A stretch of 64,000 nt of DNA from NCBI RefSeq assembly GCF_004920405.1, contig NZ_RFLV01000005.1:142354-206353 (forward strand), written 5' to 3'. The stretch comes from Pseudomonas leptonychotis (GTDB lineage: Bacteria > Pseudomonadota > Gammaproteobacteria > Pseudomonadales > Pseudomonadaceae). Positions 57,100 to 62,116 of the stretch are shown here, piece by piece. Position 1 is the stretch's first letter. Each line of letters begins with the position of its first letter. The notes below the pieces were generated by a model. That model searched no databases. It was not told where the DNA came from and was given only the letters and a program-made list of their open reading frames with translations. Position numbers and translations under genes: made by a program.

Positions 57100-57176
<77 letters not shown>

Positions 57177-57183
57177 GATACTC

Positions 57184-57213
57184 AAAAAGGCCACTCAATC
57201 GAGTGGCCTTTTT
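57184..57213 (+). terminator. Terminator of tRNA-fMet copy 1
   Basis: A 12-bp-class hairpin with A and T runs, 7 bases after the tRNA. The same hairpin follows copies 2 and 3. Confidence 0.9.
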
Positions 57214-57262
57214 GCTTTTCCGCTATACCGATTTAAGCTATTGATTAAAAACCACTAATCAA

Positions 57263-57290
57263 TTGACAAAAGATCGTTTCTGTATAGAAT
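57263..57290 (+). promoter_or_regulatory. Promoter of tRNA-fMet copy 2
   Basis: TTGACA at 57263-57268 and TAGAAT at 57285-57290 are spaced by 16 bases. The tRNA starts 7 bases further on. Confidence 0.85.
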
Positions 57291-57296
57291 TGCCGG

Positions 57297-57373
<77 letters not shown>

Positions 57374-57380
57374 GATACTC

Positions 57381-57412
57381 AAAAAAGGCCACTCAATCGA
57401 GTGGCCTTTTTT
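57381..57412 (+). terminator. Terminator of tRNA-fMet copy 2
   Basis: The same stem-loop as after copy 1, with A and T runs one base longer. Confidence 0.9.
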
Positions 57413-57461
57413 GTTTCCTGCAGCTAACAAACCTAAGCATTTGATTAAAAACACTATTTTG

Positions 57462-57489
57462 TTGACAGCAGTCGATTTCTATATAGAAT
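57462..57489 (+). promoter_or_regulatory. Promoter of tRNA-fMet copy 3
   Basis: TTGACA at 57462-57467 and TAGAAT at 57484-57489 are 16 bases apart, matching the other two units. Confidence 0.85.
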
Positions 57490-57495
57490 AGCCGG

Positions 57496-57572
<77 letters not shown>

Positions 57573-58260: not shown

Positions 58261-58317
58261 AACAGCGAACGTCACAACCAATCGGGGCGACGTTCAGTGC
58301 TGGTCAATTGGCAGCGC

Positions 58318-58347
58318 CACCGCTAGAATTGCGCACTTTTTGATCAG
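58318..58347 (+). repeat. Left copy of a 30-bp direct repeat (original rimO promoter region)
   Basis: These 30 bases are identical to 60732-60761. They hold the -10-like TAGAAT that precedes rimO, so this is the promoter region that originally served the rimO start at 58398. Confidence 0.9.
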
Positions 58348-58397
58348 AGGCGCAGCAAGCGCCCAGCATCCGTCCGTACACGCCTGAGGTTAACGCC

Positions 58398-58460
58398 ATG
58401 TCCACCCCCGCCACGCCAAAAGTCGGCTTCGTTTCACTCGGATGCCCTAGCGTTAGTTGA
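58398..58460 (+). pseudogene. Orphan 5' end of rimO
   Basis: An ATG preceded by GAGGT opens [17 protein letters not shown], the RimO N-terminus, then leaves homology after the proline and stops within four codons (SVS, TGA at 58458). It is the original gene start, cut off by the inserted segment. Its codons differ at many silent positions from those of the intact copy at 60797, so it is not a recent duplication. Confidence 0.88.
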
Positions 58461-58483
58461 TCTATACAAGATCCTCAGGCACC

Positions 58484-58530
58484 AAAAAGGCCCGATACCG
58501 CAGGCAACACCTGCGGTACCGGGCCTTTTT
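58484..58530. terminator. Strong palindromic hairpin after the orphan rimO start
   Basis: This 47-nt inverted repeat, with AAAAAGGCCCG and CGGGCCTTTTT at its ends and a CCGCAGG/CCTGCGG inner stem, can terminate in both directions. It would stop transcription that starts at the orphan rimO promoter. Confidence 0.8.
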
Positions 58531-58803
58531 GGTGGCATGACACCTGACGAGTTATTAACTCGCGTAAGCGGCAACGACCGGCCAATAGCAGCCAGTCGCG
58601 TCGGGCAGAAAACGACCCGAAGTGGCCTTTGAAAACAGGCAAGTATAGGCACAACAATCGCCATATCTCGCTCGACTAGCTGCCATTTTTTCTGTGAAAG
58701 CAAAATGGTTTGCTCGCGCCAGCATCGGTATGCTGATGCCTCATCCTGCCCCAAAAGAACCTAAGAAATACATTTCCAGCCCACAACTACGGAAGGAACC
58801 GAT
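58531..58803. other. Intergenic leader of the ankyrin gene
   Basis: No gene is seen. The 18 bases at 58577-58594 match 60539-60556, on the other side of the ankyrin gene, with two mismatches in the same orientation. The remaining sequence shows no clear promoter; an AAGGA ribosome site lies just before the ankyrin ATG. Confidence 0.4.
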
Positions 58804-60486
58804 ATGTCTGAAGTGCGCCTTGTCTATCAACTGCATTTTTCCACCCGAGCCGAAGCCAGGGAGCTACACCGGGTGCTTTTAGAGGCAAACGCCCAAGTCT
58901 CTGATGAGGCCAGAGCACAACAGCTAATTGCAGTGCTGGGAATAGAGTCACAGAGCGCAAACCCCGCCCTCTGGCTGGAAGACAGCAGCTTCGATCAGAT
59001 TAAGGTGGAGGCGTTAATTGGTGGAGATTCGGCACAGTTTCCTTCTCCCACGATTTCTTCACAGCTACTGAAGCTGGGATGCAAGCTAATGGCCTGTAAG
59101 TACGGCCTCGACGGGAATCCCAACCAAGGCGTATGGGCCAGCGCTACCCGCTCAATTACTCGTAAGCAGTATGAGGCTGCGCTTCGCAAGATTGATCCGA
59201 TGGAGGAAGTCTGGCAGTTGCTCAAAAAGAAGCGGTTTGAGTTGGTGGGTGAAATGGTGACTCTACATGGAATGGACCCAAACGCGATGGTAGGCCCCAT
59301 ACCATTACTGATTCAGATGTTGCGCACGGCGCAGCGTACTAATAGCGACCCTATGCCAACGGATGTAATTATCGATCTGCTCAAGGCAGGTGCGATTGTT
59401 AATCCAGTAACCCTGGTAAGTGGCCCCCTTCCAAGCTATGACATGCCCTACTTTCCCCTCCAGATGGCGGCATATACCTTCGATCTGAGACTGATCCAAG
59501 CTCTGTTGGACGCAGGGGCCGATGTGAATGAACAAGCCCCAAGTGGTCGTACGCCGCTCCATGTGCTTGCGGATTCATCATGCAACCTGAGATCGCACCC
59601 CGAGCGCGCCACCTTGGCTGCCGAACTATTATTGGCCAATGGTGCGGACCTGAATCGCTATTCGCCAGAGCAAGGCACTCCTCTGGCAAGCGTTAGGCAT
59701 GCCCAACTGCGCGAGTTGATGCTAGCCCACGGCGCGACCCTGGAATTGCCCGAATCGGCGCGCTCAGACAACATACTAGAACAGCAGTCTGGGGCTGTTC
59801 GCGTTCACGACCACCAACGTTTCAACGAGTTATTGGTTGCAAGCCCACCGACAGAGCTCGAACGCCATAAGTTACTGACTATAGCGTTGAGAGAAGGTAA
59901 TCATGTGGCCTTAGACCAACTCTGGCGCCTCGGCGATCATGCTTTTATGCCTTGCATAGGGAGTGGCACTGAGGCCGATGGAGAGCAACTTCTGGCCTAT
60001 TACATTACCGATCAGGCCGGCATGAATGAAGCCATGCTGCAAGACTTGGCCGAACGCAGCCGATCTACAGCATGCCCTGCCTTTGAAGGCCCGCTGCTGC
60101 AAGCCGCTTTCGAATGTCTAACGCAGCAAATTAACAAAGAGGCACCGCCAGCAATGGCCAGTAGGCTAATTGAAATGGGCCTGCCATTTGATGCACCGAC
60201 AAACTCTAGGTACCACCCGTTTAGACGAGCCGTAAGTAACAATAACTTGGAGATAGTTCTTTTGTTGCTCGCAAAGGGGGTTGATCCAAACAAGCCCATC
60301 ATCGATTCAGCTAACTCACTGGACTTCGCATTGCACGAAGCCGTGATATACAGAGCAAACAGCTGTATTGCCCCACTTTTAGCAGCCGGGGCCGACCGTG
60401 AAGTGCGCAACCGCAGAGGCCTAACGCCACTTGAACTGGCTATAGAAAGCAAGAACAAACCGGCTCAAAAAATATTGTTGAGCTAG
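58804..60486 (+). CDS. Ankyrin-repeat protein, cargo of the rimO insertion
   Basis: This 560-residue protein has no signal peptide or membrane segment. Ankyrin repeats are visible at about residues 217-243 (PLQMAAYTFDLRLIQALLDAGAD), 248-284 (GRTPLHVLAD, LLLANGADLN), 290-312, and again at about 470-497 and 508-558 (LLAAGADREVRNRRGLTPLE). The first ~200 residues and a middle part (about 320-450) are not recognised. Ankyrin repeats bind other proteins; the partner and role are unknown. It is the only gene on the inserted segment and has an AAGGA site 7 bases before the ATG. Confidence 0.82.
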   Translation: MSEVRLVYQLHFSTRAEARELHRVLLEANAQVSDEARAQQLIAVLGIESQSANPALWLEDSSFDQIKVEALIGGDSAQFPSPTISSQLLKLGCKLMACKYGLDGNPNQGVWASATRSITRKQYEAALRKIDPMEEVWQLLKKKRFELVGEMVTLHGMDPNAMVGPIPLLIQMLRTAQRTNSDPMPTDVIIDLLKAGAIVNPVTLVSGPLPSYDMPYFPLQMAAYTFDLRLIQALLDAGADVNEQAPSGRTPLHVLADSSCNLRSHPERATLAAELLLANGADLNRYSPEQGTPLASVRHAQLRELMLAHGATLELPESARSDNILEQQSGAVRVHDHQRFNELLVASPPTELERHKLLTIALREGNHVALDQLWRLGDHAFMPCIGSGTEADGEQLLAYYITDQAGMNEAMLQDLAERSRSTACPAFEGPLLQAAFECLTQQINKEAPPAMASRLIEMGLPFDAPTNSRYHPFRRAVSNNNLEIVLLLLAKGVDPNKPIIDSANSLDFALHEAVIYRANSCIAPLLAAGADREVRNRRGLTPLELAIESKNKPAQKILLS

Positions 60487-60796
60487 CGCCGACAAGATTC
60501 AGTGAATGTCTGCACCTGGCCGACTGCTGCCGACTGAGACCCGCCAATATCAGCCAAAAGTGCCCGTTGAGCGATAGCCCAACATCGGGAGTACGTCATC
60601 CTTCACAGTATTCACGACGCAGATTCATTTAACGGGACCAAGGTGCATGTACTGCAGGTAATCCACCCCAAAAAGTTTACTGTCACGCTAGGCACACCAA
60701 GCTATCGACGGTGCTGGATAATCTCACCAAGCACCGCTAGAATTGCGCACTTTTTGATCAGCGGTGCCACCCAGAGCGCCCGATGAGGTAAGCCCA
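60487..60796. other. Right arm of the insertion: non-coding, with the replacement rimO promoter
   Basis: No gene is seen in 60487-60731. The span then contains the second copy of the 30-bp repeat (60732-60761) and a new ribosome site, GAGGT, before the rimO ATG at 60797. The bases between the repeat and the ATG differ from those at the left copy. Confidence 0.5.
60732..60761 (+). repeat. Right copy of the 30-bp direct repeat (current rimO promoter region)
   Basis: It is identical to 58318-58347. The distance between the two copies is 2,414 bases. Confidence 0.9.
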
Positions 60797-62116
60797 ATGT
60801 CAACTACTACACCCAAAGTTGGGTTTGTGAGTCTCGGATGCCCCAAAGCACTGGTGGACTCCGAGCGCATCCTGACCCAGCTGCGCATGGAAGGTTATGA
60901 AGTGGTGTCGACCTATCAGGACGCCGATGTGGTGGTGGTCAACACTTGCGGCTTTATCGACAGCGCCAAAGCCGAATCCCTGGAAGTGATCGGCGAAGCG
61001 ATTAAGGAAAACGGTAAGGTCATCGTCACCGGTTGCATGGGCGTGGAAGAAGGCGCAATTCGTGACGTACACCCCAGCGTGCTCTCAGTCACCGGCCCGC
61101 AACAATATGAGCAAGTGCTCAACGCTGTGCATGAAGTGGTTCCACCGTCCACTTCGCACAACCCACTGATCGACCTGGTGCCGCCACAAGGTATCAAGCT
61201 CACCCCACGCCACTATGCCTACCTGAAGATTTCCGAAGGCTGTAACCACAGCTGCAGCTTCTGCATCATCCCCTCAATGCGCGGCAAGCTGGTCAGCCGC
61301 CCAGTGGGTGACGTGCTGAGCGAAGCCGAGCGCCTAGTCAAAGCCGGCGTCAAAGAGCTGCTGGTGATCTCTCAAGACACCAGCGCCTATGGCGTCGACA
61401 TGAAGTACAAGACCGACTTCTGGAATGGCCAGCCAGTGAAAACCCGCATGACGGAAATGTGTGAGGCGCTTTCGAGCATGGGTGTATGGGTGCGCCTGCA
61501 CTACGTCTACCCCTATCCACACGTCGACGAGCTGATCCCCTTGATGGCCGCCGGCAAGATCCTGCCGTACCTGGATATCCCCTTCCAACACGCCAGCCCG
61601 AAAGTGCTGAAAGCCATGAAGCGCCCGGCCTTCGAAGACAAGACCCTGGCGCGGATCAAGAACTGGCGCGAAATCTGCCCCGAACTTACGATCCGCTCGA
61701 CCTTTATCGTGGGCTTCCCCGGCGAAACTGAAGAAGACTTCCAATACCTGCTCAACTGGCTGACCGAAGCGCAACTCGACCGCGTGGGCTGCTTCCAATA
61801 CTCACCGGTAGAAGGCGCACCCGCCAATCTGCTCGACAACCACGTACCGGATGACGTTAAACAGGACCGCTGGGACCGCTTTATGGCCCACCAGCAAGCC
61901 ATCAGCACTGCCCGCCTACAGCTGAAGGTCGGTCAAGAAATGGACGTGCTGATCGACGAAGTCGACGATCAAGGCGCCGTCGCTCGCTGCTACGCTGACG
62001 CGCCAGAAATTGACGGCAGCGTATTTATCGCTAGCACTGGCGTGAAGCCAGGTGACAAAGTTCGCGTGCGCATCGTCGATGCTGATGAATACGACATGTG
62101 GGCAGAAGTGATCTAA
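60797..62116 (+). CDS. rimO: Ribosomal protein S12 methylthiotransferase RimO
   Basis: This 439-residue radical SAM enzyme adds a methylthio group to Asp88 of ribosomal protein S12 (E. coli numbering). It has an N-terminal UPF0004 domain with NTCGF and TGCMG, the cluster motif [17 protein letters not shown], and a C-terminal TRAM domain. The ATG at 60797 has GAGGT 8 bases upstream. Its first 15 codons come from the inserted segment and encode [15 protein letters not shown]; the protein is one residue shorter than the original start would give. It appears fully functional. Confidence 0.95.

Follow-up and report, generated by a model that had tools for sequence, protein, structure and literature searches.

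Why should a bacterium carry two beginnings of one housekeeping gene, and only one gene to go with them? The question is raised by the rimO locus of Pseudomonas leptonychotis, which we studied in a stretch of 64,000 nucleotides (nt) of contig NZ_RFLV01000005.1 (hereafter the window). As an earlier note on this DNA had described, two rimO starts lie 2.4 kb apart, with ATG codons at 58398 and 60797. The second leads into the intact gene (60797-62116; TIGR01125, 583.8 bits), while the first is an orphan. We consider it highly probable that the DNA between them is an integrase-less cassette from a family of temperate phages and islands that use a large serine integrase like that of phage JC1 to enter rimO at its 5′ end, and that the right end of this cassette is a host-type rimO start.

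The two starts share an 11-bp core, CTCGGATGCCC, located at 58437-58447 on the left and at 60833-60843 on the right (core-to-core distance 2396 bp). The start codons had been described as mostly silently diverged and indeed are: 10 of the 15 aligned codons differ, 9 of these 10 silently, and there is a gap of one codon. The further claim that the starts differ upstream is correct for the leader below the promoter. The promoter itself is common to both copies, which share a 36-bp block of 94% identity (58318-58353 and 60732-60767).

The left copy (58318-58447) is the native one. Four relatives have empty rimO loci (L007, L009, L016 and L030; L numbers denote loci and G numbers genomes), to which it is 92.4, 93.8, 93.8 and 92.3% identical, respectively, and each of their genomes carries a single exact start motif. 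Thus, the empty sites that the earlier note proposed to look for do exist. In all four cases the alignment stops at 58447, the last base of GCCC, and this match up to the end of GCCC rules out chance as the source of the left copy.

Judged by its sequence, the left junction is an attL of a known kind, that of JC1-like large serine integrases with a crossover at the TG of the L-G-C-P codons. Burkholderia phage JC1 integrates into the 5′ end of rimO (PMC9144972; this and the other papers are cited from excerpts). The JC1 attP, which we read from the phage record, is symmetrical about the TG in CTCGGGTGCCCGAG and has the outer arms GTATA and TATAC. In the window, as in JC1, TATAC ends 20 nt past GCCC, so that a rimO start is joined at TG to a phage P′ arm. 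We scored this arm (58448-58467) with a weight matrix built from 36 distinct arms of 39 viral contigs, which had been found by the start motif only. It reached 19.4 bits, the highest value among the 127,962 20-mers of the window (runner-up 12.4). From the symmetry of the JC1 attP, the precise crossover is probably the TG dinucleotide inside the 11-bp block, at 58443-58444 and 60839-60840. A defined insertion point, as proposed earlier, is supported and lies in the Cys codon of L-G-C-P; the proposal that the 11-bp core alone is the recombination site is not supported.

The likeness to other attL sites extends beyond the arm. Positions 58422-58529, of which 85 nt lie past the crossover, are 80-81% identical to the attL regions of L104 and L180. 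The same rimO site holds an attL in a related metagenome-assembled genome (MAG; G435), where 150 nt are 94.7% identical to the window (58320-58469); rimO itself was not found in this MAG. Its attL (L284) is followed by about 18 kb of open reading frames (ORFs) resembling a tailed-phage cluster, as judged from ORF size and order only. No phage matched the orphan start when its DNA was used to search for an attP.

The same junction recurs widely. The start motif by itself picked out 39 IMG/VR contigs, and all of them proved to be orphan starts with the same attL. In a one-genome-per-species collection (84,980 species), the attL pattern occurred at 44 loci, and all 44 were orphan starts, in Pseudomonas, Azotobacter, Burkholderia, Paraburkholderia, Achromobacter, Cupriavidus, Xanthomonas, Acidithiobacillus and others. 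Because part of the P′ arm is built into this pattern, loci with divergent arms escape it, and the 44 loci cannot serve as an independent test of the arm. Homologous or illegitimate recombination might have inserted or duplicated the segment with no integrase involved, and the two near-identical promoters offer a substrate for it. Such a process does not, however, account for a conserved phage P′ sequence at a conserved spacing on the left arm, nor for the same junction in viral contigs picked by the start motif alone. We regard it as very unlikely. An assembly artefact might be suspected about 3 kb from a contig end; however, both junctions lie inside one contig and independent genomes share the architecture, which makes this explanation more improbable still.

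A JC1-type integrase match was present in 34 of 43 attL genomes, always with at least 51% identity, although a few were partial or had stops. In a sample of 398 genomes of the genus, 54 matched the integrase at E ≤ 1e-20, 8 of them at 56-62% identity and the rest at 41% or less. We thus collected 38 close integrase loci (8 from the genus sample and 30 from the attL genomes; the two sets overlap in some genomes). As many as 36 of them adjoin rimO, or 35 of 37 distinct loci, since L138 and L223 are one locus. In L140 and L222 the integrase does not adjoin rimO within the locus stretch examined. The phage-type (P) half [CA]GTRTAGG was found in 35 of the 36 rimO-adjoining loci, where it doubles as coding sequence of the new start. 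Two prophage loci have a protein of 354-358 amino acids (aa) between integrase and rimO (L136, 3133-4209, and L139, 3207-4271, both on the minus strand); the one in L136 had no Pfam match.

As a separate observation, the reversed native rimO leader resembles the N-terminus of the JC1 integrase in all three flanks of named Burkholderia (L177, L188 and L198) and in four of five viral contigs with similar starts (L112, L113, L121 and L123, not L122), for example VAAKARVYSDL versus VAGKARVYSYL. It is as if the native start had its origin in a former phage start, although the individual E-values (0.002-0.35) are weak.

The right junction of the window is of a different nature. On a P-versus-B score, where B stands for the host type, its right half has -29.4 bits and the orphan left half -30.0, against +23.3 for G175, a remnant with a true P half; in leave-one-out runs the P minimum was 3.1 and the B maximum 4.8 bits, so the tails of the classes overlap slightly. 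By its value of -29.4, and in spite of this overlap, the right start was rejected as a genuine P half, so that a right end made by the integrase's own site is not supported. The window contains no attR in which [CA]GTRTAGG codes the new start. Likewise, no integrase match at E ≤ 1e-20 was detected beside rimO or elsewhere in the genome (G000; 29 contigs, completeness 100).

A different origin of the right start, suggested earlier, is supported. Its promoter and leader are 95.4% identical over 65 nt to L008, a locus of another Pseudomonas lineage; in viral contigs, one exact pattern of this start was searched and gave no match. The rimO body, on the other hand, is largely native. We compared a native group (L009, L016 and L030, with L007 removed by a filter) with a second group (L008 and L036-L039). 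The first 600 nt contain 16 diagnostic columns, beginning 11 nt past TG. Twelve of them are native-type, 2 are L008-group-type and 2 are neither; the first 10 are all native-type. Simple tandem duplication is out, because a phage arm terminates the left copy and the right one is similar to a different lineage.

The features of the locus are listed below.

58301-58329 (+): native sigma-70-like rimO promoter (TGGTCA-17-TAGAAT), left in front of the orphan start alone (consensus match; the block is kept upstream of rimO in relatives)
58398-58447 (+): orphan native rimO start, B half of attL (relatives match to 58447 and no further)
58443-58444 (+): TG, probable left crossover (centre of JC1 attP symmetry; same position in viral and genome attL loci)
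58448-58467 (+): phage P′ arm of attL, TAGCGTTAGTTGATCTATAC (best 20-mer of the window)
58480-58534 (no strand): hairpin with 25-bp arms near the left end of the element, which may terminate transcription in both directions (region similar to L104 and L180)
58804-60486 (+): cargo, a 560-aa ankyrin-repeat protein
60487-60731 (no strand): spacer in which no gene was recognised
60715-60743 (+): second promoter, TGGATA-17-TAGAAT, upstream of intact rimO (consensus match)
60731-60795 (+): promoter and leader like those of another Pseudomonas lineage
60797-60840 (+): replacement rimO start, host-type (B) half by its score
60839-60840 (+): TG, probable right crossover and centre of the putative re-formed attB (JC1 attP symmetry)
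60841-62116 (+): native rimO body (TIGR01125; native bases from the first diagnostic column)

The consensus scan for promoters found 3 such sites versus 1.7 expected. Upstream of the element, three tRNA-Met(cat) genes stand in a row (57100-57572), with starts 197 and 199 nt apart.

Excision by large serine integrases needs both attL and attR. Since the window has the former but not the latter, the insert should be locked, with no ordinary excision expected. At the same time, an attB-type site seems to have re-formed around 60839-60840 (roughly 60815-60864 if the arms are 24 nt), and it looks open to new integration. RimO is still encoded in frame behind a promoter and is presumably expressed.

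In the explanation we prefer, a JC1-type large serine integrase would have cut rimO at the TG of the L-G-C-P codons, leaving the native start joined to a P′ arm on the left; such an enzyme probably made the original insertion. The right junction lacks the phage P half and has instead a host-type promoter and start that resemble another Pseudomonas lineage, joined to the native body. The outcome would be a RimO in frame, a retained ankyrin cargo, no attR for excision and a renewed attB-type site. The attL, the empty sites, the foreign-looking start, the lack of an integrase match in the genome and the attB-type half can all be read directly in the compared sequences. The insertion of a segment with its own rimO start, which the earlier note had put forward, is partly supported, and a recombinase family and a phage arm are now added to it.

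Several points weigh against this explanation. No recombination was observed as such, and the case is one of sequence comparison. No further copy of the cassette was detected in 57 genomes searched, the window's own included. At E ≤ 1e-15, the ankyrin gene occurs in its own genome and in none of the 397 others of the genus sample; nor was it found in phage or plasmid collections (tblastn, 1e-5), and viral contigs yielded no close relative. What links the insert to phages is the P′ arm together with about 85 nt of the left end. The four non-native diagnostic columns of the rimO body, 2 of the donor-group type and 2 of neither, all lie beyond 310 nt. At L209/L279 an open integrase frame stands beside a B-type start, unlike the usual pattern. 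Finally, established large serine integrases need a P half, and an element with a B-type right end would not be expected to enter site-specifically.

The earlier note had advised a search for different cargo between the same two points, and such cases were found in other genomes. At least two exact start motifs occurred in 6 of the 398 genus genomes: that of the window, G031, G188, G196, G200 and G349. G142 and G175 were added on the basis of extra matches and then read; G065, flagged in the same way, has one start motif only. G188 has three starts in a row, that is, two tandem inserts of 2.2 and 6.1 kb. G200 and G349 are not counted as complete cases, as rimO of the former is on three contigs, and attL and rimO of the latter are on different ones. 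The three G200 contigs (L084, L085 and L086) carry rimO with the same start, which may reflect assembly redundancy or real copies. Outside the genus, inserts were found in a Burkholderiaceae MAG (L286), Achromobacter UMC46 (L281) and A. pulmonis (L285). In Pararobbsia (L187/L282) it is the left half, not the right, that is P-like by eye; it scores -2.1 bits, the highest of the genome-locus left halves when the score is rerun with those left halves alone as the B class.

Two routes could have brought in the host-type start, both ending in the state described above, and we hold them about equally, each as a realistic possibility. The first is repair in place. A whole prophage would integrate, and a rimO allele from a foreign strain would then recombine homologously within rimO and illegitimately within the prophage. 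The integrase would be lost along with most phage genes, and rimO would regain a host-type start. This route covers the recombination with a foreign allele that the earlier note had named as an alternative. If repair took place, phage remnants should adjoin the start and the repair tracts should vary in length; both are seen in the Pseudomonas cases. Remnants of a gpV-like phage tail gene (Pfam Phage_base_V, 20.6 bits, below the cut-off of 23.8) lie between attL and rimO in five genomes (G196, G188, G031, G142 and G175). G349 also has them upstream of rimO, but its attL is located on a different contig. A neighbour of this remnant is presumably gpD. The right starts of G196, G188 and G031 repeat the native upstream region over about 200 to 400 nt or more, as repair tracts would, and Burkholderia LMG 13014 (L280) retains an integrase fragment beside a host-type start. 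The window fits repair in place less well, as no phage gene remnant was recognised in its insert. Moreover, the window, Achromobacter UMC46 and A. pulmonis switch to native-type sequence seemingly within about 10-30 nt of TG (estimated positions), whereas crossovers spread over a 1.3-kb gene would rarely fall so near.

The second route is a cassette whose end already carries the rimO promoter and start of a former host and which enters site-specifically at TG with an integrase acting in trans. Foreign sequence is then predicted to end at TG, and in the window the first diagnostic column, 11 nt further on, is already native. In UMC46 the right start agrees with the one native to Cupriavidus (78% over 74 nt). 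The orphan start and the rimO body of UMC46, by contrast, agree with those of A. pulmonis, the body at 80-93% per 30 nt and at 90% in its first 30 nt. Between the right starts of UMC46 and A. pulmonis, identity is 70% over the 30 nt adjoining the core and 53% further upstream. In one Cupriavidus locus (L287), the right end combines a host-like leader with a P-like half (+15.9 bits), as an end with a captured start might. However, B-type halves are not expected to act as attP, and no free cassette was seen.

The cargo varies among these inserts. The ankyrin-repeat gene of the window has the lowest GC content at third codon positions (GC3, 0.55) of the 46 window ORFs of at least 200 aa. Its protein matches the PDC-M72A and Ankyrin models, over the repeats only. 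A Dot/Icm ankyrin effector was considered and rejected: the NCBIfam scores of 27.9-37.9 bits, against cut-offs of 500-600, are read as repeat similarity only. We also ran PADLOC on 20 hand-chosen cargo proteins, so the counts are not rates. Clear matches were obtained for PDC-S39 (G031), ThsB (the Burkholderiaceae MAG), Lamassu LmuA/B/C and PDC-S64 (UMC46) and PDC-S31 (G142); weak ones for PDC-S51 (a DUF3800 protein of G196), PbeC (a G031 protein) and IetA (an L279 protein). Nine of the 20 had no match, including a PIN protein of G196 and the Pararobbsia protein. Pfam identified the DUF3800 and PIN proteins of G196 and, in G188, a TacA1-like antitoxin beside a GNAT-like protein that is below its cut-off.

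Integration at rimO is already in print; the window insert, integrase-less and with a host-type start, is by its sequence not an intact JC1-type member. The window shares with JC1 the gene, the crossover, the position of TATAC in the P′ arm and an insert-supplied start that keeps rimO in frame, but JC1 has an integrase and a P half (PMC9144972), neither of which was found in the window, where the start is host-type. Excerpts of other papers tabulate a Variovorax prophage with a serine integrase at rimO (PMC9658991) and mention rimO once as a target in Polaromonas (PMC4482086); another paper concerns rimO expression (PMC11551772). A genomic island, or partial integrative and conjugative element, of Acidithiobacillus ferrooxidans also sits at rimO, and att-site polymerase chain reaction is reported for the elements of CCM 4253; unlike the window insert, these islands are 53-165 kb long and carry conjugation genes, and the excerpts describe neither their recombinase nor an exchange of the start (PMC10322971). 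Islands and prophages specific for dusA likewise supply a conserved modification gene with a new promoter and 5′ end, but they use another gene and another integrase family (PMC4482086); the window site is rimO, which places the insert outside that group.

The staphylococcal cassette chromosome (SCC) and pseudo-SCC elements at orfX are similar in having a recombinase site in an RNA or ribosome modification gene that is left intact, recombinase-less forms and tandem composites; they differ in using the 3′ end of the gene, Ccr recombinases and staphylococcal hosts (PMC6243372). The JC1 integrase matches CcrB weakly (27 bits versus a cut-off of 900), and the window element is no SCC as defined by a ccr recombinase and an orfX site: it lies in rimO, and the one gene recognised in it codes for ankyrin repeats. 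A broken integron integrase, with its C-terminal part missing, is located directly downstream of rimO near the contig end (62252-63202, minus strand; TIGR02249, 408.7 bits, 274 of 315 profile positions). An integron cassette might be thought of, but the left end of the insert is of the serine-integrase type. The literature covered, with most subscription journals outside the search, yielded no account of start exchange or of rimO inserts that lack an integrase and have a host-type start.

Usual phage integration at a gene start yields a phage-made start and an excisable prophage. In the window, by contrast, the start is host-type, the cargo stays and the site is re-opened. About as tentatively as for either route, we suggest that rimO might house the Gram-negative equivalent of SCC islands. 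The cassettes, lacking an integrase and in several cases carrying defence-like cargo, would end in a captured host rimO promoter and start and be mobilised in trans by phage integrases. A housekeeping gene would thereby receive its start from another species or even another family, and each entry would restore attB, so that cassettes can stack. The P, P′ and B halves provide a sequence rule for seeking such sites in other genomes. If the phenomenon is general, a conserved gene would serve as a reusable landing pad that gathers cargo and yet remains functional, and a housekeeping gene may have a promoter and first codons whose history differs from that of its body.

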